A stretch of DNA of 44,127 nucleotides from assembly GCA_018435055.1 (NCBI GenBank), contig JAHDOA010000045.1, positions 1-44,127 on the forward strand, in the 5' to 3' direction. A program made the position numbers and the translations under genes. How positions within the stretch are numbered: the stretch's first letter is position 1; each line of letters starts with the position of its first letter. Below, piece by piece: positions 22,608-37,151 of the stretch. The DNA is from Pelotomaculum sp. (GTDB lineage: Bacteria; Bacillota; Desulfotomaculia; Desulfotomaculales; Pelotomaculaceae). A model generated the notes under the pieces. That model made no database searches, was not told the DNA's origin, and was given only the letters and a program-made list of their open reading frames with translations.

Positions 22608-25600
22608 TTAAAATATGGTCATCTGTTCTGGTTCCACGTAGCGCAGGACGTCTTCGTCTTCTTCGCCGCGCACGTCCTTGACGACCACCCGGCGGCGGCC
22701 GTCCTGGAGGATGTCCTGGTTCAGGAGGTAGCTGACAGCGAACCTGGAGGTGATTTCCCGCGGGATGCGGTGTCCCGGAGCGATGAGCTGGATGTCATTT
22801 TGCTGTAGAATTTTAAACATGGGCTCCCAGAGATATACCGCCGAAGTGGCGCCAAAGGGGTTGTCGGCAATAATTACCTTCCTGGTGCGCACCGCGCTGT
22901 TTGTTATAGACAGCATGCGGATGAAGGAAATCAGGCAGGCGGCAAAAATGAAATAAAGGGAATTGTTCTGACCCTCGGAGCCGATGGCTTGTTCCCAGCG
23001 GTAGAACCGGGAGTTTTCCGGAATGCTTTCTACCTTGTACAGGCGCACGGCCGCCTTATCCATGTCAACTATCCGGGCCAGCAGTTCTTTGGTGGAGAGC
23101 CTGGCCGCAACCCGCTTGCGGTCGAATTGCCCTTCCTCGCTGATTTCCCTGACAATCCCGTTAATGTGTTCCCTCATGCGCATTTGCTTGTCCTTTTCCT
23201 CAAACTCATGCAGCCTCAGCTCAATCATATTGGTCCTCCGGCCATAGACCTCAATGCGTGACAGCGCCTCCAGCTTTCTAATATGACCCAGCGCCAGTTC
23301 GGCCCGCTGGGTGCAGCGGCGCGTGAAATCCTCCTGGTAGCTTTCCAGCCGGCTGATATCATTCGTGATCTTCTGCATTTGTTCTTCGATATTGACCTGG
23401 TATTCATGAAAGGCCGCTTTCCTATCCCGGCATTGGGCGGCGCTCACCGGCCTGGAGATTTTCGCCAGCTCCTCCAGCGGCTCGCGGATAACATAAGCCG
23501 CAGTCTCTACCTGAATGGTCTGGAGGCGCTCGTCCCATTTAGCATACAAACCCTGGATGGCATCCCGGCTGCGGCTGTATTCTTTTTCAAATTGCCAGTA
23601 ATCCTTAACCGCAACAGCCGTCTCTCCATCATTATCGATTGACTGCCGTTCCAGAAAAGCCTGGTAAGCCTCCTGCTGATGGCTCAACCTGTTGTTTTCT
23701 TTTTCCTTCCCGGCCAGTTCAACGTTGGCGCTGTTAATTTTCTGAGTATAGCTTTTGAACAACTGTTCGACCCGGCCAATTTCCTGCCGGTAACGGTTTT
23801 CATCCTCATAGCGGGGCATCGTTGACTGCTGATCAACAGTAAAATCCTTTAAAATTTCTTCCAGCTTGCCCTCCAGGCTTTTAATCCGTCCTGAAATTTC
23901 GATAATTTTACGGCCGACCTCCGCCAGGCGCTGCCCGTTAGCTTCCTTCGCCTGCCTGGCCTCTATGATCTGGTTTTGCGCAGGGATAATCACCAGCAGG
24001 CCGGCCAGCTCGCTTTTTTCAATTTCCGCCAAATCTTCCCCATAATCCCTCAGGGTTTTGGCATGCAGTTTAACAAGCTGGTCTTCGTTTTCCCGCAGTC
24101 GATTTCTCAGGTCACTCTCCTCGGCGATTCTCCCGCCGACAGCATCCTGCAGAGCTTTAAAAGAAGCGCGCGCCTGCGCCAGGGGCAGATCATTTTCAAT
24201 CATCGCAAAACCGGCCACCTGCTCAGCTTCCTGTTTGGCCGCAAAGCTCTCCTGAATCAGGCCGGCCAGCCGCTCTTCCTCCTCGCGGTACTTTTGTTTC
24301 AATTCAGCAGCTGCAGCAATAAGACCGGCAATACCTCTGCCCACATCCGCTTTCTCCCGCTTTTTGACCTGCGCCTGTCCCCTGATCCCGGTTAATTCTG
24401 TTTCTGTTTGCCTTTTCTCCGCAAACTTTTCTATTTTTTCCCGGCTCAGCGCCGCCAGCCCGGCCAGTTCCTCCAACCTGCGGCGGCAAAGCTCCCTTTC
24501 CTTTTCAAGCCGCTCTTGCCCGGCTTCCAGTTCCCGCCGGCGTTCTTGCCATTCCTCGATCTCTTTAGCCAGGACTGCAACCTCTTTTTCCCATTCGGCA
24601 ACCGCAGCCTGCGGGTATTTATCAATAAAAAGAGCCACTTCGGCTAAATCAGTGTCCAATTCTGCAATCCTGGCCTCCGCGGCAAGGATATCCCTGTCCC
24701 GGGCCTGTATTTTCTCCTCCAAACCCCTTATATACCGGTCGTACTCCCCCCTGTTCAACAGCAAGCCGGCAAAGCTGCAAATATAATAGGGGTTTTTTCC
24801 TTCTCCCGCCTCCCCTGGACCGCCCCGCAGCGACTCCAGATTAACCACCGGTACCGGGTAGTCCGAGGCAAAATCCGGCTTGATCCGGCCGTTCTGCAGC
24901 CTGGTAAAGGATTCCCCATCCACAATTACAGAAAATGGCAGGTAGGGCGCCTCCCACAAAATTTTTTCCTTTTCCCGGGCTTCCGCGCTGTCAATCCATT
25001 CAATACCTGTCTGCACAAAGGGGCATTTGGCCTTCAATTGCCCGGCCAGGGCAAATATCTCTTCGTTGGGCACATAAAAACCCTTGTCTGCGGAAAGCTG
25101 CTTTTTCTGCCGCATGCGTCCGGCTTCAATTTCTGTCTCCAGCTTGTGCAGGCTTTCCCGGCGCTGCGCCTGTTGCAGCGCGTCCCGATACGTTTCAATA
25201 CCGTCTTGCCCCCAGGCGCGGGCTTTATTTTCCAGGGCCGTCTGCTCCTGCCGGTAGCCCGTTAAGCAAGCCTCAACCCGCTCCCGGGCAGCGCGGCGCT
25301 GTTTGATTTCGTTTTCGATATGTATATATTCAAGCGCGGCATCTTGCAGTCCGGCTGCCAACTCGCCCAACCGCCCGTTCAGGGCAGTGGTTTCTGCCTG
25401 GCAGCCGTCTAAATCTGCCTGCAGCCGCTCCGCATATATGTCAGGTGAAAGCACAGCATCAAGCTCACCTAATTGCTGGAAGAAACCGCTCAGTTCCCGC
25501 AGCCTTCCCGCCAAAACCTTTTCTTGCTGTTCAAGATCATCCACAACTACCTTCAGGACGGCGGCATTTTTCTCTGCGGCAATCAGGTCCTGCTGCACAC

Positions 25601-26999
25601 CTTCCCGTTGCCCTTCCAAACTGTTTTTGACCTTTTGCGCCTCCGTCAGCGACAGGCGCAAATCCGCCAGACGCCTTTCCAACAAAAACCTCAGCTGTCC
25701 CCCGGCTTCATTGTATTCAGCCTGCAGGCTGTCCGCACCCGCCGCCAGTAACTCCAGGCGCCGGCTCAACTCAGATACCCTTTCCTTTACATCACGGTAC
25801 TCTCCGTATTCCTCCAGCGTCAGCTGGTGGTTGAGTTCTCGCTCCAGTTCTCTATGTCTTTCCGCCAGTTGGCTCCTTACATCTTCCTGCCGTTGTTCTT
25901 CGGCCTGCAGATTCTCTTTTTGCAGGTTTACCAGACCCGCCGCCAGCAATTTTTCTAACTGTCTGGCCTGCTCCCTGCCGGCGGCGTGCTCCGCCAGTCT
26001 AGTCTGAATTTCCGCCATTTCCCGCCCCAGCGTTTGCCGCTTGCAGACAATCAGGTTGTATATGGCTGCGGCCTGCCGTTTGCCTGACTCGAACTGTTGA
26101 AAAGCCGCCAGCAGCTCCTCATTCCTGCCGCCGAATTCACTGTAGTAGGTCTTGATTCGAGTGAATTCATTCAGGTGGCTTTTTAGCTTCAGGTACTCAT
26201 TAAGCCTGCCGCGGATCTCAATCAGGGTGTCAGCCAGCAGCAGGCTTTCATTCCTGTCCTTTTCCCCTCTATTTAAAGCCTCGACATCCTCCACTATTTT
26301 CACAAACAAGTTCTCAATGAGCTTCCTGGAGGTGGCGTTCTGCCTGAAATACGATTCAATATTATTTTCACCGCTGTTTATGCCCCTGATGATGTTCCAT
26401 TCGGCGGCAAGAAGGTGGTGGGCGGCGATATAATGCTGGTACTGGTCAATTCTATCGAAAATTTCCGCGGGCAACCCTTTCTGCTGCATTTGCTGGATAT
26501 ACCTTCTAACGTCGTCAAAACCGGCATACCTTTTATGCCCGCCCTCCAATCGCGCCAGGGGCACAGCGCGGCAACCGGTAATACGGTTGTCGTTATAAAA
26601 TACGAGCCAGTTGCGGTGCTCAATGTCGGCTGACTGCAAACCTTCCTCTTCTTCAGAATCGGAATCCGCCGCTTTGTTCAAGCCTCTGCGTTTCCTGGCG
26701 GAAAAACCGGTCAGCAAATATTTGTACCCGTATCCCTCTTCTAAAATCCACTCCACAGCCACGTGGGAAGTCCTGTCCTTGCCGCCCTGGAACAAAAGGC
26801 TCAAAGGTTTTTCCTTTCTTAAATACGTCTTCGGCAGGACAACCTGCAGGAGCATCATCAACAACAGGGACTTGCCGCCGCCGTTCTCCAGGTCGTAAGT
26901 GGTATTCCTGCCCGCCGGCTCCAGGTAAAAATCATCAAAGAGCTGGGTGGCGTTATTAAATTGGACGTTGACCAGCCTTATACTCTTGATGTGGGGCAT
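22608..26999 (-). CDS. jetC: Wadjet SMC-like ATPase JetC
   Basis: Motor subunit of the Wadjet anti-plasmid system, an SMC/MukB-type ATPase that with JetA and JetB forms a loop-extruding complex. The 1463-residue protein has an N-terminal Walker A variant (LENGGGKSLLL, residues 38-48), a long coiled coil from about 240 to 1200 broken by a globular hinge-like part (about 640-770, KGFYVPNEEIF to GLLLNRGEY), then the signature region GSEGQNNSLYF and Walker B VIIADNPFG near 1375. Its ATG shares one base with the jetB stop, so translation is coupled. It is the last gene of jetDABC. The strand opposite carries long open frames that are shadows. Confidence 0.92.
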   Translation of the reverse strand: MPHIKSIRLVNVQFNNATQLFDDFYLEPAGRNTTYDLENGGGKSLLLMMLLQVVLPKTYLRKEKPLSLLFQGGKDRTSHVAVEWILEEGYGYKYLLTGFSARKRRGLNKAADSDSEEEEGLQSADIEHRNWLVFYNDNRITGCRAVPLARLEGGHKRYAGFDDVRRYIQQMQQKGLPAEIFDRIDQYQHYIAAHHLLAAEWNIIRGINSGENNIESYFRQNATSRKLIENLFVKIVEDVEALNRGEKDRNESLLLADTLIEIRGRLNEYLKLKSHLNEFTRIKTYYSEFGGRNEELLAAFQQFESGKRQAAAIYNLIVCKRQTLGREMAEIQTRLAEHAAGREQARQLEKLLAAGLVNLQKENLQAEEQRQEDVRSQLAERHRELERELNHQLTLEEYGEYRDVKERVSELSRRLELLAAGADSLQAEYNEAGGQLRFLLERRLADLRLSLTEAQKVKNSLEGQREGVQQDLIAAEKNAAVLKVVVDDLEQQEKVLAGRLRELSGFFQQLGELDAVLSPDIYAERLQADLDGCQAETTALNGRLGELAAGLQDAALEYIHIENEIKQRRAARERVEACLTGYRQEQTALENKARAWGQDGIETYRDALQQAQRRESLHKLETEIEAGRMRQKKQLSADKGFYVPNEEIFALAGQLKAKCPFVQTGIEWIDSAEAREKEKILWEAPYLPFSVIVDGESFTRLQNGRIKPDFASDYPVPVVNLESLRGGPGEAGEGKNPYYICSFAGLLLNRGEYDRYIRGLEEKIQARDRDILAAEARIAELDTDLAEVALFIDKYPQAAVAEWEKEVAVLAKEIEEWQERRRELEAGQERLEKERELCRRRLEELAGLAALSREKIEKFAEKRQTETELTGIRGQAQVKKREKADVGRGIAGLIAAAAELKQKYREEEERLAGLIQESFAAKQEAEQVAGFAMIENDLPLAQARASFKALQDAVGGRIAEESDLRNRLRENEDQLVKLHAKTLRDYGEDLAEIEKSELAGLLVIIPAQNQIIEARQAKEANGQRLAEVGRKIIEISGRIKSLEGKLEEILKDFTVDQQSTMPRYEDENRYRQEIGRVEQLFKSYTQKINSANVELAGKEKENNRLSHQQEAYQAFLERQSIDNDGETAVAVKDYWQFEKEYSRSRDAIQGLYAKWDERLQTIQVETAAYVIREPLEELAKISRPVSAAQCRDRKAAFHEYQVNIEEQMQKITNDISRLESYQEDFTRRCTQRAELALGHIRKLEALSRIEVYGRRTNMIELRLHEFEEKDKQMRMREHINGIVREISEEGQFDRKRVAARLSTKELLARIVDMDKAAVRLYKVESIPENSRFYRWEQAIGSEGQNNSLYFIFAACLISFIRMLSITNSAVRTRKVIIADNPFGATSAVYLWEPMFKILQQNDIQLIAPGHRIPREITSRFAVSYLLNQDILQDGRRRVVVKDVRGEEDEDVLRYVEPEQMTIF

Positions 27000-27724
27000 C
27001 AGGCGCCTACCTCCAGGCTTTGGACAAAGGAAAGCAGGTCCTTCCTGTTGTCCCTGTCCTCATAATAATTCCAGATAATCGTCTTCAAACGGTCCGTGGG
27101 ATAAATGATCCGCCGGTCCATGTCCAGGACGATCAGTTTTTCGCTGCTTAAGAACCTGCAGATATTTTCCACAAAGGCCACCTTATCGTTCTTGCCCCCG
27201 GCCACCCCTTCCCGCGCGTCGGGGAGCCTTTGCCAGACCCGGCAGATTTCCACGAAGTCAAACTGGTTCTCACGGCCGGCTGCTTCCAGGTCCTCCATTT
27301 GCCACAGGGCCGCCAGGCGCCTGGTGACATTTTCCACCAGGTCGTTTATTTTGATGTAGGCTACCGGCGTGTCCGGATAAGCCTCCCGGTAAAACATGGT
27401 CACCAGCGTCATGATGATAAAGTAGCCGGTAAACAACTCGCTGTTGTTGGATATGTAACTGATCCTGCCCCGCAGTTCCTCGTTGGTCCACCCGAACAGC
27501 AGGCTGCCGGCCTCCGGGCAGACAAACAACCGGTCATGTCCCGCATATACCTTGAGTTCCAGTTTGCCGGCGATATGCTGCAGCATTTCTTCCACGTCGC
27601 TGCGATAATGATATTTTTCATACAACAGGGTATTTTTGCTTTTACTGACCTCTTCCCCCTGCAAAAGCGCCTTCAGAATATCCAGCGCCTCATCTAAAAC
27701 ATCGGTTATTCCTTGTCTCATCAT
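26999..27724 (-). CDS. jetB: Wadjet subunit JetB (DUF4194-like)
   Basis: MukE-like accessory subunit bridging JetA and JetC. 241 residues with no catalytic motif; the arrangement of helices, including DLVENVTRRLAALWQMED, and a C-terminal winged-helix-like part with SEKLIVLDMDRRIIYPTDR is as expected for the family. The start is placed at ATG 27724 after AGAGGGGG. A GTG at 27778 would add 18 residues encoded by an inserted repeat (27,743-27,769), so those residues are not part of the family. Preceded by jetA, followed by overlapping jetC. Confidence 0.88.
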   Translation of the reverse strand: MMRQGITDVLDEALDILKALLQGEEVSKSKNTLLYEKYHYRSDVEEMLQHIAGKLELKVYAGHDRLFVCPEAGSLLFGWTNEELRGRISYISNNSELFTGYFIIMTLVTMFYREAYPDTPVAYIKINDLVENVTRRLAALWQMEDLEAAGRENQFDFVEICRVWQRLPDAREGVAGGKNDKVAFVENICRFLSSEKLIVLDMDRRIIYPTDRLKTIIWNYYEDRDNRKDLLSFVQSLEVGA

Positions 27725-27742
27725 ACGCACCCCCTCTAGAGT

Positions 27743-27769
27743 GTGCCACGGGGACGGTTCTCTTGACAC
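27743..27769. repeat. 27-bp palindromic repeat between jetA and jetB
   Basis: GTGCCACGGGGACGGTTC continues to a TTGACAC end; outer ends GTG-CA and TG-CAC are inverted. A related 27-bp copy lies at 30,637-30,663 (20 of 27 positions equal when the latter is compared with the reverse complement). It begins one base after the jetA stop codon on the coding strand and ends before the jetB ribosome site. Confidence 0.7.
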
Positions 27770-27770
27770 G

Positions 27771-29393
27771 TTAGACACGCGCGCCTTTGAACAGCATGTC
27801 GGTTATTTTCAAACCCGGCAACAGCTCCACTTCCCGTTCAGGGAAGCTTTGCACCCGGACCTGGTTGATCCTTCCTTCCAGGCGGGCGGCCAGGGCTGCC
27901 CGGATAAAAACCTCTTCCATAGTTTTTAATTCTTCCTCCACCCGGATCCGGCCATCGGCAAAGGAGATGGTCCTGACGCGCTCGCCCGGGGGCTTGTCCC
28001 GGTTCATTTCCAAAAGAAAGCTCAGGAAATCCCCGTTATAGACACTGTCTTCCTTATAGCTGTCAATCAGGCTGCGGCAAAAGTCCTGCAGCGTGACCCG
28101 CCCCCCGCCCGTGTCCAGCGTTTCCAGCAACCTGGCCGCATAGAACAGGAAGTTCCTTCTAACCCGGCCGCTGGTAAGTTGGTCAATGGTTTCCCGCTCG
28201 ACCGGCGCCTCAGTCGCACCGCCCTCTTCCTCCTCCCGGCGGCTTTTCAACAGCCGCTGAGGCTCAAAGGCCCGCAGGATATTGAAACTCTTCTTGAGAT
28301 GGGGATTGAGCAACGGCTCAAACAAAAATTTAAGGACCCCCGGTTTCCCATTTTTATTAACCAGCTTTTCCAGTTCACCCTGAAAATTAAACCTTTCTGT
28401 AAAGATAGCTTTTCTACGCAGGCCAAGCGTCCGGTCGTACTCCTTGGTAAAGCCGGCGGCGTCCCTTAATAGTTCAGTGTGCAGGGTCTGGGCGCGGCCG
28501 ATTTCTTTCTCGATAATTTTTATTAAGGTAAAAACGCGTCTATCCTTCCCGGTCGCCTGACCGCTGTTAATTCTCTCCACATATTCGGCAAAGGCGCTTC
28601 TGACGTTTTTCAGCGCCGTATTAAACAACCCGGCTTCCTCCTGAAACTGCAGGGCAATGCTCCGGTGGTAACTGTTGTAAGCCTCGCCCAAATCCAGGCG
28701 GCCATACATCAGAGCCTCCAGCAGGGAATATTTGCGGTCCTTCTTCTTCTGCACCTCCATATTCAGCCTGCGCACTGTTTCATAGGCAAAACCAAAGGCG
28801 CCCTTTTCCATTTGTTTTTGGAAAAGCAATAGGTTCACGGTGATTTTGGTTTCCTCGGGAAACTCCTTGGTCCGCAGATAAAAGTCAACGCCCTGCTCCG
28901 TGACATAGTACTGCAGAGCGCCCTCACCGGCTTGCTTAATCTCCAGCAATTTGACGTATTTTTCCCGCAAGCCGCCACCTTTAAAGCTGAAGGCATGAAG
29001 CGTGAAATTACGTCCGCCGTTTTGCAGCCCGTCCAGGATTTCCGCAGTTAGATCACTTGCCTCCTGAGGTTCTATGCCGCGGGCCAGGATGCGGTTTAAA
29101 GCCTTGCCCAAAAAGGACTGCAGTTCCTTAAAAGTAATTCCCCTGTATTTCAGCTTTCCTTCAAAAATCAGATAAGATAGTATTAGAAAACACAGCTCAG
29201 GTACCAGCCTGGAAAGATCACCTTCGTTTTTTCGTTTCCTGAGCAGTTCCATAATTGGGCAGTACACTTTGACCTGATCCAGACGCAAGTCAAGCTCTGC
29301 CAGAAAGTCATCGACCAATGCCAGCTCCGGGTCTTTGCCGGCGGTGTTTTCCCGGATTATTTCCCTGGCCAGAAGGTCGTCCCGTTCCATCAT
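27771..29393 (-). CDS. jetA: Wadjet subunit JetA (kleisin-like)
   Basis: MukF/kleisin-like subunit that would connect the JetC head domains. 540 residues, without enzyme motifs: an N-terminal winged-helix-like part (LVPELCFLILSYLIFEGKL, TEQGVDFYLRTKEF), a helical middle (EKEIGRAQTLHTELLRDAAG) and a C-terminal domain with GRVRRNFLFYAARLLETLDT. Order and size fit the JetA of Wadjet operons in which jetD comes first (type III as I recall the classification). Its ATG overlaps the jetD stop by four bases. Identification rests mainly on context with the clear JetC and JetD. Confidence 0.88.
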   Translation of the reverse strand: MMERDDLLAREIIRENTAGKDPELALVDDFLAELDLRLDQVKVYCPIMELLRKRKNEGDLSRLVPELCFLILSYLIFEGKLKYRGITFKELQSFLGKALNRILARGIEPQEASDLTAEILDGLQNGGRNFTLHAFSFKGGGLREKYVKLLEIKQAGEGALQYYVTEQGVDFYLRTKEFPEETKITVNLLLFQKQMEKGAFGFAYETVRRLNMEVQKKKDRKYSLLEALMYGRLDLGEAYNSYHRSIALQFQEEAGLFNTALKNVRSAFAEYVERINSGQATGKDRRVFTLIKIIEKEIGRAQTLHTELLRDAAGFTKEYDRTLGLRRKAIFTERFNFQGELEKLVNKNGKPGVLKFLFEPLLNPHLKKSFNILRAFEPQRLLKSRREEEEGGATEAPVERETIDQLTSGRVRRNFLFYAARLLETLDTGGGRVTLQDFCRSLIDSYKEDSVYNGDFLSFLLEMNRDKPPGERVRTISFADGRIRVEEELKTMEEVFIRAALAARLEGRINQVRVQSFPEREVELLPGLKITDMLFKGARV

Positions 29394-30490
29394 TTGACGC
29401 CAAACCTTTCTCTCATTTCCTCAGCCGAAAGGGCCTCCTGGGGAATATAAAAGCCTTGTTCCAGGTGTTCTTTGATTTTTGCCGCCCAGGGCGGCGAAAA
29501 AGTGTGCAGGAACTGTTCCACATTTTCTTTTATTAATCTTTGTTCTTTAGGTGTTTTGACCGGCGCCTTATTCAGGCCAATCTCGAGAACGGCCTGGTAC
29601 CCGGCTACAAAAGGCTGGATGTCGTATTGGGGATATTCCGCTGATAGCAGGCAGTAAATATTGATGCCTTCCGGATCCAGATCGCCGAAGTAGTAAAACC
29701 GGTCTCTTTGCAAATTTACCGCGTATTCTTCCACGAACCGGAAACTGCTGATAATTTTCTTTCCTTCCCCGTAAATGATGAGGTCCGCTTTAATTCTCGC
29801 TGGTTTGTCCATGGTCTGCTCTTTGAAAGACCAGAAGGTATCTTTGTTTTCAATGATATAAATATCCCTGTTCGCCAGAGCGTGGAAGACCTTGCTCTGA
29901 AAACTAAAAAAAGGCTCAACCGTCTCCCGGCAGCCGATGTCGGCATAAACCAGGCCCAGCCGCCTGAGGACTGTTTCACCCCGGCTTCTGTTTTTACCTG
30001 CTCCTTTAAAAAACTTTTCATCGCCAAACAACTGGTAGGCCCGCTCATTTACCGTAAGCATACCGTGCTGCGGCTGGCGCAGAAAATTGCTGATTATGTC
30101 AATAATTGGCTGATCACGCTTGAAATCCTGCGGGTTCTTGAAATAATAGTCCAGCCCCGCCGGAGGGGCGATGCTGCGAATAATATCAGCAGCGCAGCCG
30201 GCATCAAAAATAACCGGGCTTTTTATGACCCTGTATTTCAGGTGCAGTCCCTGCGGCGTGGCCGGCTTTTTCCCTACGGGCGCCAGGATTTGTTCCGCAA
30301 CAAGCTGCCTTACGGCCTGCTGGAAGGCAGCCATCCCCGGCGGGCTTTGCAGGTAAGCCGGCATACCGCTGTTCAGCTCCTTCGCCCGTTCATGCAGCTG
30401 TTCCAGAAGAATAAACCTCCCCTTAAAAGTGCTGACGGCGATTTCCAGCCAATTATAAAGTTCACCGGTGTTAGGACAGGTATCGATCAT
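29390..30490 (-). CDS. jetD: Wadjet nuclease JetD (Toprim, DUF2220-like)
   Basis: Toprim-fold nuclease related to topoisomerase VI/Spo11 that cuts DNA captured by the JetABC complex. 366 residues. An N-terminal helical arm domain (residues 1-150) precedes the Toprim domain with Glu214 (YIIENKDTF) and the acidic loop YYFGDLDPEG (Asp270, Asp272, Glu274), the expected metal-binding residues, all intact. First gene of the operon; ATG preceded by AAGGTG. The upstream 200 bases hold two GGGGAC-type repeats and no clear promoter. Confidence 0.9.
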   Translation of the reverse strand: MIDTCPNTGELYNWLEIAVSTFKGRFILLEQLHERAKELNSGMPAYLQSPPGMAAFQQAVRQLVAEQILAPVGKKPATPQGLHLKYRVIKSPVIFDAGCAADIIRSIAPPAGLDYYFKNPQDFKRDQPIIDIISNFLRQPQHGMLTVNERAYQLFGDEKFFKGAGKNRSRGETVLRRLGLVYADIGCRETVEPFFSFQSKVFHALANRDIYIIENKDTFWSFKEQTMDKPARIKADLIIYGEGKKIISSFRFVEEYAVNLQRDRFYYFGDLDPEGINIYCLLSAEYPQYDIQPFVAGYQAVLEIGLNKAPVKTPKEQRLIKENVEQFLHTFSPPWAAKIKEHLEQGFYIPQEALSAEEMRERFGVK

Positions 30491-33356: not shown

Positions 33357-33605
33357 CTAATTCCCCGGCAGCTCTCTTATGATCGTTTGCGCTGGTCCAG
33401 TAGCCGTCTCTGCGGTCATGAAAAACTCAGCTGCTGAAAAATCATCATCAAATTGACCCATTACATCCAAGATATCCATCCAATCATTGACAGTATCCAA
33501 CATAGCCTCGTCATCTAAATGAGCAAGGCTTTCTTCATAATCTTTTCCCCTAACATGTTTACACCTATTTTCTATCTTGAATCGGGGGTACCTATTATTC
33601 TTCAC
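33357..33605 (-). CDS. Hypothetical small acidic protein
   Basis: No family recognised. 82 residues, GTG start, overlapping the end of the upstream 208-residue gene by 11 bases, so the two are probably co-translated. The centre is acidic (AHLDDEAMLDTVNDWMDILD), the N-terminus basic. Confidence 0.5.
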   Translation of the reverse strand: MKNNRYPRFKIENRCKHVRGKDYEESLAHLDDEAMLDTVNDWMDILDVMGQFDDDFSAAEFFMTAETATGPAQTIIRELPGN

Positions 33606-34221
33606 TATCTCTATGTCCCGTCATTTCCTCGTCCACCCAATCTTCCTCAACGTACACCATACCGTTCCGGCCTTCGACTTTTCGATTAGGGCCAGCCTTA
33701 TATAATTTGCAGCTCAAAGGACCATAACAGAATGTTTCAAACCGGTACTTCCTCCGGCCCCCGGGGTTCCAGTTATCAACTATTATCTCCACCGGCATCC
33801 TGGCTCCCCACATGCAGCTGCTGCATTTAACATCATAAGTCCTGGCAGCCAGTCTCCGGTGTCCCCTTTCCCGATAAACCTCCAGCTCCGGAGGTTCCAA
33901 TTCCCAGGGTGTTGATATGCTTCCCTGCTCCCCTTGCGCTACCTTAGCTAACTTCGATACCTTATAATAATCCACCGGCTCCATGTCCGGATCCGGAACA
34001 GGAAGGCATTCGCCTGAGATAACATCGTTGACTTTGAAGTTGAATTTAGCTTGGGCTGCTTTCCCGATACCTATCGAAAAGGTGGTTTCTTCGGCTTCAA
34101 TAGTTCCGGCGATTTTAATGGCATAACCCAAATATGTATGAGAGGCTTCATCAAATGAACGGATTAGCCTTATTCGTGGTTGGATTGATGTGATGGCGCC
34201 TTTGAAGGATAGTTTGTTCAT
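33595..34221 (-). CDS. Hypothetical protein with a two-Cys WG-type zinc-like motif
   Basis: No family recognised. 208 residues. N-terminal half is beta-rich (IRLIRSFDEASHTYLGYAIK); the C-terminal half has KCSSCMWGARMPVEIIVDNW and FCYGPLSCKLYKAG, two Cys groups that could bind zinc. AAAGGA lies nine bases before the ATG. A decayed relative of residues about 25-60 lies 3 kb to the right (37,044-37,149), so the gene has been duplicated in this region. Co-oriented with the 82-residue gene and the gene remnant upstream. Confidence 0.6.
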   Translation of the reverse strand: MNKLSFKGAITSIQPRIRLIRSFDEASHTYLGYAIKIAGTIEAEETTFSIGIGKAAQAKFNFKVNDVISGECLPVPDPDMEPVDYYKVSKLAKVAQGEQGSISTPWELEPPELEVYRERGHRRLAARTYDVKCSSCMWGARMPVEIIVDNWNPGGRRKYRFETFCYGPLSCKLYKAGPNRKVEGRNGMVYVEEDWVDEEMTGHRDSEE

Positions 34222-34929: not shown

Positions 34930-35964
34930 TTAATTAAAAAGACCTTGATTATTCAGATGTTTCCAGGCAGATATGATGTGATTTTCTTTAAATAGCCTTT
35001 TCTTACATATGCTCCATTTTTGTACTGCTTCTACTACTTTATTATGGTCGTGGTTAATTTCTGAGTTATCCTTAATAACCCAATGTGTAGTGGCCAATAA
35101 TTCTAAGCCATATGGAGTTTCAAATCCCCTGATAATATTCGATACTTTACTGAGATGTTCTAATGAATCCTTTTTACTCGCCAAGTAATTATGAGCTTCC
35201 TCAGCTGCTTTTGGCTGCAGCCTAATCCGGGCCTCTCTGCTGCGATCGCCATATCCATGAATATAGTGTCCATCCATTCTTTGCAGTACATGATTAAGGT
35301 TTTCAGCGTAAGGTCCATAGAAATGCTTAGTAAAATTAAGACGCAATGGTTCACCGGTTTCTTGCAAGAAATAAGCAAGTTTTTGAATTTCTAATAATGA
35401 TAGTTTATAACCAGGCGCAGTATAATCATCCATCAATGCTAAAAATAGCGCACGGGATCTTGTAAGCCCGGGTTTTTCGGTGGCAATCCTTATTGAATCT
35501 GGCGCAGGTGCACCACCGGGAGGATAAACAAGAACTCGCACATCCGGTAATTCTGCAAAAGCCTTTTCTATATGTGGGCGGACTTTATCCCACTCTAAAC
35601 CACCATTACCACATCCAAGAGGGGGAATAGCTATCGATTTGATTTTTAAATTTTTGACTTCGTCGACAAGAGCCTTTAACCCTATTTCTATATATTCCAT
35701 CTTTGACTTGCTTTTCCAATGAACCTTAGTTGGAAAGTTAATGATATATTTAGGGTTGATTATACCCCTTAAATAAGTAAACATATTACCAACTTTGACT
35801 TCTTTAGAACGGCAAGCTTTCTGATATTCTTTGAAATTTTCGGGAAAAGCCTGTTTAAATTGAAGTGCAATACCCTTTCCCATTACCCCGACACAATTAA
35901 CGGTATTTACAATGGCTTCAACATCTGCTTCTAATAAGTTACCGTTTTTGTACTCAATCAACAT
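34930..35964 (-). CDS. darG: DarG: DNA ADP-ribosyl glycohydrolase antitoxin, orphan
   Basis: Antitoxin of DarTG systems; its macro domain removes ADP-ribose that the toxin DarT attaches to thymidine in single-stranded DNA. The macro domain is residues 1-150: NGNLLEADVEAIVNTVNC, GVMGKGIALQF, and IPPLGCGNGGLEW. The C-terminal DarG domain follows (LSLLEIQKLAYFLQETGEPL, FYGPYAENLNHVL, GHYIHGYGD), which in the family binds and blocks DarT. Length 344 fits full-length DarG. The start is ATG 35964 after AAGTAGG. DarT is normally encoded directly upstream; here that place is taken by a truncated radical SAM gene, and no DarT-like gene is visible anywhere in the window. Confidence 0.88.
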   Translation of the reverse strand: MLIEYKNGNLLEADVEAIVNTVNCVGVMGKGIALQFKQAFPENFKEYQKACRSKEVKVGNMFTYLRGIINPKYIINFPTKVHWKSKSKMEYIEIGLKALVDEVKNLKIKSIAIPPLGCGNGGLEWDKVRPHIEKAFAELPDVRVLVYPPGGAPAPDSIRIATEKPGLTRSRALFLALMDDYTAPGYKLSLLEIQKLAYFLQETGEPLRLNFTKHFYGPYAENLNHVLQRMDGHYIHGYGDRSREARIRLQPKAAEEAHNYLASKKDSLEHLSKVSNIIRGFETPYGLELLATTHWVIKDNSEINHDHNKVVEAVQKWSICKKRLFKENHIISAWKHLNNQGLFN

Positions 35965-36694
35965 TTCCACCTACTTAGTAAGTGTCCGGTTCCTCTAATT
36001 TTCGCATTGCTCAGTTCATCATAACCATCAATACTTACTTGCACTTCGGCAACTTTATTTGCTGTATATTCTATTAAGTCATCGGTCCACTCAGTTCCAT
36101 TGGTAAGCAAAGTGGTTGTTAGATGGAGCTCATTTGCGACTGAGATAATTTCTCTTAAATCTTTATGCACCGTTATTTCACCACCAGATAAGGTAAGATT
36201 ACATCCACCGTGCTGTTTAAATGCTCTCAGTAAAGCAAGTACTTCGCTTAATTGCAGTTCATTCTCCAGCGATTTGCCGGCAAACATATAGCAGTGTCTA
36301 CAGTAAAGATTGCACTATTCGTCAAATATAAATACAGACTTTTTAATCCTTGAGCCTTATATTTGCAGGACTCAAACTGCTTTGCTTCCAATTCAGTCAT
36401 TACATACAAAAGGTCGTCCAAACTCATGTCGGAATCTTTAAGTTGTGCCAGAACATCTTCAATAGAGAAAACCGTCAAAAGATCAAATATCTTTTCTTGC
36501 TCGTGATTATGCAGAAGTATCCAATTGGCCGAATCAACAGCAATAATTAAAATACCGTTCGGTAAATATTCGCGGCTTATATTACTCGGCATGTTGTATT
36601 TTTTTGTAACATCTACTTGTATCTCACGTTCATTCATCACGCATGTATACTCCCCTAAAATAAACGGATCTATAAAAATATACGATTTATTCAT
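35958..36694 (-). pseudogene. Radical SAM peptide maturase, frameshifted and truncated
   Basis: Start ATG 36694 (GGAGAG five bases upstream). The N-terminal ~130 residues resemble the PqqD/RRE-like leader-binding part of RiPP maturases (NGILIIAVDSANWILLHNHE). Near 36,315 the frame breaks by one base; in the next frame the coding continues as CNLYCRHCYMFAGKS, the CxxxCxxC cluster motif, and NLTLSGGEITVHKDLREI, the GGE SAM motif. After SNAKIRGTGH the similarity stops and the frame ends in the darG ribosome site, so the C-terminal half (SPASM region) is lost. A short Cys-containing peptide gene lies 58 bases upstream with a good promoter. Confidence 0.75.
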
Positions 36695-36752
36695 CAGCTC
36701 TCCAAGCGACAAATAAATCGTATTTCATATTACATCTTATACTGTACTAAAA

Positions 36753-36854
36753 CTAATTTTGGTTCTTCTCGCAGCTTTTAAAGCAATACATTGCGCTTGT
36801 TCTGGCACTGTCTTTAACCTTTGTCACTTTCCACTTTAAAGTAATCTTTTTCAT
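36753..36854 (-). CDS. Putative RiPP precursor peptide, 33 residues
   Basis: ATG at 36854 with AAAGG eight bases upstream and a near-consensus promoter in front. The peptide starts MKKITLKWKVTKVKDS, a basic leader-like stretch, and ends SAMYCFKSCEKNQN, with two cysteines three residues apart. It is followed 58 bases later by the radical SAM maturase gene. Size, Lys-rich N-terminus, terminal Cys residues and position fit a substrate of a Cys-modifying radical SAM enzyme; the CcpA/CcpM (CLI_3235) type is a candidate from memory. Not proven by sequence alone. Confidence 0.55.
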   Translation of the reverse strand: MKKITLKWKVTKVKDSARTSAMYCFKSCEKNQN

Positions 36855-36889
36855 CCTATCTACCTTTCTTTCGTTAATTTTCTAGGAAC

Positions 36890-36918
36890 ATTATACCACT
36901 AACCCCATAATAGTACAA
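36890..36918 (-). promoter_or_regulatory. Promoter of the precursor/radical SAM cassette
   Basis: On the minus strand TTGTAC (36913-36918), a 17-base spacer and TATAAT (36890-36895), about 36 bases before the peptide start. Confidence 0.65.
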
Positions 36919-37043: not shown

Positions 37044-37149
37044 AAATTTAGCCTAAACTGCTTTGCCGATACCAATAGAAAAATTTCTTTCATCGAAATC
37101 AAAGTTACATACTATTTTCAGGGCATCCCGAATATGCATGAGAGGCTCC
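37044..37149 (-). pseudogene. Decayed second copy of the 208-residue hypothetical gene
   Basis: On the minus strand EASHAY is followed after a frame break by DALKIV, DFDERNFSIGIGKAV, a stop codon and AKF. This aligns with EASHTYLGYAIKIAG and TTFSIGIGKAAQAKF of the gene at 33,595. Both a frameshift and an in-frame stop are visible. The 36,919-37,043 stretch next to it has only GAACCAC/GTGAACCA-like motifs that may be a worn IS end. Confidence 0.7.
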
Positions 37150-37151
37150 AC

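Follow-up and report, generated by a model that had tools for sequence, protein, structure and literature searches.

Which system is represented by a short cysteine-containing peptide gene followed by a broken radical SAM gene in a 44,127-nucleotide stretch of Pelotomaculum DNA (hereafter the window), and what would its product do in an intact relative? The first-pass annotation took the locus for a decayed RiPP cassette. The features on which the argument rests are listed below by position; G006 (a contig of Pelotomaculum sp. PtaB.Bin104), G058, G161 and G182 denote genomes with intact relatives.

22608-30490, minus strand: complete type III Wadjet system (JetA, B, C and D; PADLOC, up to 538 bits)
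34930-35970, minus strand: intact, orphan DarG antitoxin gene (NF048014, 476 bits), adjoining the remnant and outside the module
35985-36314, minus strand: middle part of the maturase in a shifted frame, with the CNLYCRHC radical SAM core (PF04055) and running up to KIRGTG; 70% identity to residues 96-220 of the G006 maturase
36315-36637, minus strand: 5' part of the maturase, comprising a RiPP recognition element (RRE) and linker up to the frameshift; 73% identity to residues 1-109 of the intact G006 maturase; modelled with an RRE fold
36674-36723, minus strand: terminator-like hairpin and T run between the peptide and maturase genes (-20.4 kcal/mol, z -5.6)
36753-36854, minus strand: intact gene of a Cys-containing precursor peptide of 33 aa, MKKITLKWKVTKVKDSARTSAMYCFKSCEKNQN, with homologues in G006, G058, G161 and G182
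36890-36918, minus strand: sigma-70-like promoter TTGTAC-17-TATAAT, read directly from the sequence; aligned with, and mostly kept in, G006 and G058

An intact peptide gene beside a broken maturase

The 33-codon peptide gene opens with the ATG at 36854, preceded by the ribosome site AAAGG at 36867-36863, and its stop codon ends at 36753; promoter and ribosome site lie within the stretch that can be aligned to G006 and G058. It is the only ORF in the window that starts with ATG, encodes 25-60 aa behind a ribosome site, and has at least three Lys in its first 12 residues and at least two Cys in its last 15. This uniqueness, together with a 33-aa homologue in another genus (E = 2.5e-16), rules out a chance small ORF. 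The promoter, the tiny gene with its ribosome site, and the Lys-rich leader and Cys-containing end that had been proposed for this locus were all recovered. Separately, the motif FSIGIGKA in a 208-aa ORF (33595-34221, minus strand) recurs in a short fragment 5' of the peptide gene (37053-37151, minus strand), perhaps a broken duplicate.

The maturase start had been placed 58 bases beyond the peptide gene, near a TTG at 36712 that sits within the conserved hairpin; this placement is corrected by the starts of the homologues, which set the initiation codon at ATG 36637 (MNEREIQ; MNEREIQVDVTKKYNMP...), about 115 bases past the peptide stop. The N-terminal part runs to LYLTN, and alignment with two intact homologues reveals a one-base shift at about 36315-36317, just before the CxxxCxxC motif, after which the next frame resumes with CNLYCRHC (CNLYCRHCYMFAG...). 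Homology ends after KIRGTG at about 35985, with the 3' half lost; the DarG ORF starts 15 bp further, and a genome search at E <= 1e-40 found no copy of the missing 3' part elsewhere. The earlier description of a decayed radical SAM gene, frameshifted and cut short, is thus upheld apart from its start. With the genome assembled in 70 contigs, a misassembly might in principle account for the frameshift; the truncation is independent of that point.

Three relatives have a DarT-like ORF immediately 5' of DarG, in the place held here by the maturase stump, and a DarT family search of the 3.28-Mb assembly found no DarT upstream of DarG or elsewhere in the genome. On these grounds the simplest account is probably a deletion from mid-maturase through the helicase gene described below to the end of darT, with darG left behind. 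DarG marks the edge of the deletion and is no part of the module, which is dead in the window genome, its maturase being frameshifted and truncated and its helicase lost. The decay is young. Between the window and G006, dN and dS are 0.050 and 0.416 for the peptide gene and 0.12-0.15 and 0.6-1.0 for the maturase pieces; as the differences are mostly synonymous per site and the values lie near those of the intact G006-G058 pair, selection acted on the window module until recently.

Intact peptide-maturase pairs and the maturase family

An intact maturase with a 33-aa peptide gene upstream was found in four genomes, the peptides being 91% (G006), 91% (G058, MKKITLKWKVAKIKDSARVSAMYCFKSCEKNQN), 64% (G161, MKEIKLTWVVKKVEDTSRVNAMYCFKSCSANQN) and 73% (G182, MKKVTVSWKVKKVKNSARINTMYCFKSCERNQN) identical to that of the window. 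The G006 maturase has 438 aa and that of G058 is 81% identical to it; G161 and G182, found in the phylum sample, are genomes of other classes in which the peptide likewise lies 5' of the maturase. The C-terminal MYCFKSCxxNQN is invariant in all five peptides, which also share W8, V10, K12 and R18. Treponema saccharophilum carries on its plasmid pTS1 two Cys peptides as candidate precursors, MVLTWNVAENELQNIKCFGCFNCCCVMANMGGGGPGSASENDNG and MKTLTLTWNVELIPEKVYTAASGGCYYTFKNCNECEKTVHKNS; each has a good ribosome site, is encoded 3' in the operon and is absent from the gene table. They possess an LTWNV leader and lack MYCFKSC; read as a short motif, LTWNV matches LKWKV, LTWVV and VSWKV of the Bacillota peptides and may correspond to an RRE-binding strand.

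Each of the five Bacillota loci has a stable hairpin 3' of the peptide gene (z -3.4 to -8.0), nearly identical in sequence in the window, G006 and G058 and in the same position in G161 and G182. It would serve as a partial terminator, read-through yielding more peptide than enzyme and hence many peptides per enzyme.

The intact maturase contains radical SAM and SPASM domains (PF04055 and PF13186, both over cut-off), with cysteines in P0002 arranged as CNLRCKHC and CX10GX4C..CX2CX5CX3C..C. Its nearest NCBIfam model, StsB/GggB (NF045574), matches residues 12-398 at 106 bits, nearly the full length including the N-terminal domain. Scores of the maturases against this model are 106-142 bits, below the cut-off of 625, and against TIGR04403 88-93 bits, below the cut-off of 300, so they are neither of the StsB/streptosactin nor of the sporulation killing factor type. 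The best sequence match among solved structures is SkfB (PDB 6efn, 127 bits), and the nearest enzymes by fold are SuiB, SkfB and CteB. Non-peptide radical SAM types (viperin, MoaA, PqqE) were rejected on their lower or partial scores and the presence of the RRE.

Modelling of the whole maturase gave low confidence (pLDDT 55), and the N-terminal ~100 residues were therefore modelled alone from the window, G006 and Treponema sequences, giving three strands and three helices (beta-beta-beta-alpha-alpha-alpha, pLDDT 79). The top PDB neighbours of this model by Foldseek and VIA-align were RREs (TbiB1, lasso B1, CteB and MccB; Z 5-7), as were nearly all of the better-scoring ones; single Foldseek E-values are weak, and it is the consistency of the neighbour list that leads us to predict an RRE fold for this domain, in agreement with the RRE-like N-terminus suspected at first reading. 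The four conserved pairs and the RRE-fold domain support the RiPP layout of short peptide and radical SAM maturase proposed earlier, homologous short ORFs being present beside intact maturases whose closest relatives (StsB, SkfB, CteB and SuiB) argue against a non-peptide type.

The SNF2-linked maturases form no resolved clade in the tree, and relatives occur with other partners, which indicates that the partner of the maturase can change. In G427, a related maturase lies directly 5' of a FibroRumin-type maturase (TIGR04136, over cut-off; L024 7740-10492) and has a Cys peptide ORF, MTANKDNAKKMFGTNTSCSRTIGGRCVGNCRKTGTR, upstream (L018 2911-3021). The G1148 relative lies between a candidate precursor, MVIVYEVKDCDGQRGQGCYTQCCDYTDHGNTWYK, on its upstream side and the gene of a small Cys-rich protein (L047 9854-11881). 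In G1076, the genes next in line after the related maturase encode a methyltransferase and a UvrA-like ATPase of 717 aa (L048 4257-8461), a further DNA-directed partner within the group.

An SNF2 helicase as the third gene

Directly 3' of the maturase, an SNF2 helicase gene is present in all five intact loci (G006, G058, G161, G182 and T. saccharophilum pTS1), in the same order and on the same strand, with gaps that range from a few bases up to some tens. The helicases measure 819-891 aa in the four Bacillota genomes and 812 aa on pTS1. Two of these five loci come from close relatives, and the pTS1 locus, from the Spirochaetota, is distant from the other four; its row consists of an FRG-domain protein, the radical SAM enzyme, the SNF2 helicase, a methyltransferase and then the two Cys peptides (L010 4753-10746). 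The module helicases form one clade (support 100/99) against three plasmid SNF2 proteins without a radical SAM neighbor. Among the 398 genomes of the phylum sample, peptide and SNF2-type maturase coincide in three, and the peptide is absent from the single genome with a non-SNF2 relative of the maturase. The window genome yielded no orthologous SNF2 helicase, the only match elsewhere in it being one of 36% in the helicase core.

The helicases share their superfamily with DpdE, ZorD and DrmD of Dpd, Zorya and DISARM, with matches confined to the helicase half. Unlike those proteins, most of the N-terminal ~400 residues are unmatched and the partner genes of those systems are not seen at the loci. 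Membership was rejected on scores of 46, 213 and 94 bits for DpdE, ZorD and DrmD against NCBIfam cut-offs of 500, 1500 and 950, respectively. Neither NCBIfam nor PADLOC holds a specific family for the helicases, and in searches of NCBIfam, Pfam and PADLOC neither the peptide nor the maturase subgroup nor the trio found a model of its own. A combination of radical SAM enzyme, SNF2 protein and peptide is not described in the literature searched. The best reading is a patchily distributed peptide/radical SAM/SNF2 module absent from the family libraries and literature searched.

Among the genes neighboring the module, none for export, immunity or proteolysis is conserved from locus to locus. In G058, the gene adjoining the SNF2 gene on its 3' side encodes a tetratricopeptide-repeat protein for which membrane segments are predicted (L021 13631-14635); G006 has no counterpart directly behind its SNF2 gene. 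The module occurs in 3 of 113, 1 of 380 and 1 of 82 genomes; in the one other phylum sampled, the SNF2-linked maturase was seen only in T. saccharophilum, and a search of viral contigs, plasmids and phages found no close copy except that on pTS1. An integrase lies next to the G161 module. Genes associated with defence also occur nearby: the Wadjet III system ~5.5 kb from the remnant and DarG in the window, a GmrSD_N/NsnA-like gene and a methyltransferase gene near the G058 module, and the FRG protein gene adjoining the Treponema maturase-helicase operon. The patchy distribution, the integrase and these neighbors prompt us to propose that the module perhaps serves to defend the cell against foreign DNA, for which the defence neighbors constitute circumstantial support.

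Proposed function and its alternatives

We think it reasonably probable that the window holds the remnant of a three-gene module of peptide, radical SAM/SPASM maturase and SNF2 ATPase, in which the modified peptide acts together with the SNF2 protein inside the cell. Such a module is supported at the level of sequence by the gene order, the peptide end, the RRE, radical SAM and SPASM parts of the maturase, the hairpin and the co-occurrence of the helicase. The leader, with its KxxLxWxV motif, would add a beta strand to the RRE of the maturase, and the radical SAM/SPASM enzyme would then cross-link Cys24 and/or Cys28 of MYCFKSCxxNQN to neighboring residues, the cross-link most likely being a thioether from Cys, judging solely by the nearest enzymes. 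The modified peptide would stay in the cell and act with or on the SNF2 motor, either as its activating ligand or cofactor or as a toxic peptide under its control. With an SNF2 protein as third member, an intracellular role becomes more likely than that of a secreted RiPP, a view based on the lack of a conserved exporter, immunity or protease gene, the invariant C-terminus and the constant DNA-motor partner.

A precedent for radical SAM-modified peptides in conflict systems is provided by the FxSxx systems, in which a small peptide believed to work alongside NTPases is the substrate of a radical SAM/SPASM enzyme (PMC7159879). The likeness is one of enzyme class only: the module peptide ends in CxxNQN instead of FxSxx, the NTPase is SNF2, and vWA/MoxR, AP-ATPase and metallopeptidase components are lacking, no conserved metallopeptidase having been found at the module loci (an M42 peptidase gene lies upstream in G182 only). 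Tentatively, the module may form a new class among intracellular immune or DNA-conflict systems, with the cross-linked peptide as ligand, cofactor or released effector of the SNF2 translocase and MYCFKSCxxNQN kept constant across bacterial classes to fit that partner; we regard this extension as possible but doubtful.

A bacteriocin or killing factor of the ordinary sactipeptide type, cross-linked and then trimmed and exported with the help of house-keeping proteins, and with the SNF2 protein as self-protection or unrelated passenger, would be in keeping with a small, basic, Cys-containing peptide and a maturase nearest to StsB and SkfB, which produce streptosactin and the sporulation killing factor, respectively. 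StsB/GggB resembles the module maturase in its radical SAM and SPASM domains, in a match that includes the N-terminal domain, and in a short Cys precursor (PMC8172795), but its score falls far short of the cut-off, and the module has an SNF2 helicase and no regulator or protease gene conserved alongside. SkfB has the same fold, but a twitch domain where the module maturase has SPASM, and TIGR04403 gives 93 bits against 300; export and protease genes are present in the skf cluster (PMC8172795), while exporter, immunity and protease genes are not conserved at the module loci. Moreover, bacteriocins usually diversify, whereas the C-terminus of this peptide does not vary from class to class, and the SNF2 partner is constant at five loci in two phyla. 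We consider a bacteriocin improbable.

A toxin-antitoxin-like or regulatory pair has somewhat better prospects, though we still deem it unlikely: here the modified peptide, a signal or toxin, would act on transcription or DNA of its own cell and a RapA-like SNF2 protein would clear it or respond, with no link to phage. RNA-polymerase-associated RapA and a pilus regulator are among the SNF2 proteins that score on the helicase core, and the methyltransferase and UvrA-like ATPase beside the G1076 maturase are DNA-directed too; the patchy distribution and defence neighbors nevertheless suit a mobile defence system better. Least plausible, indeed very improbable, is a module of peptide and maturase only with the helicase as incidental neighbor. 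Maturases related to those of the module do lack SNF2 in G427, G1148 and G1076, but all five loci of the subgroup have it, in Bacillota and Spirochaetota alike, with conserved order and strand, tiny gaps and a single helicase clade.

Radical SAM RiPPs studied so far are mostly secreted antibiotics, signals or enzyme cofactors. In the three-gene reading that we prefer, a cross-linked peptide paired with an SNF2 motor and with no exporter beside it points instead to DNA transactions in the producer's own cell, and the set of three genes is compact and open to direct testing.
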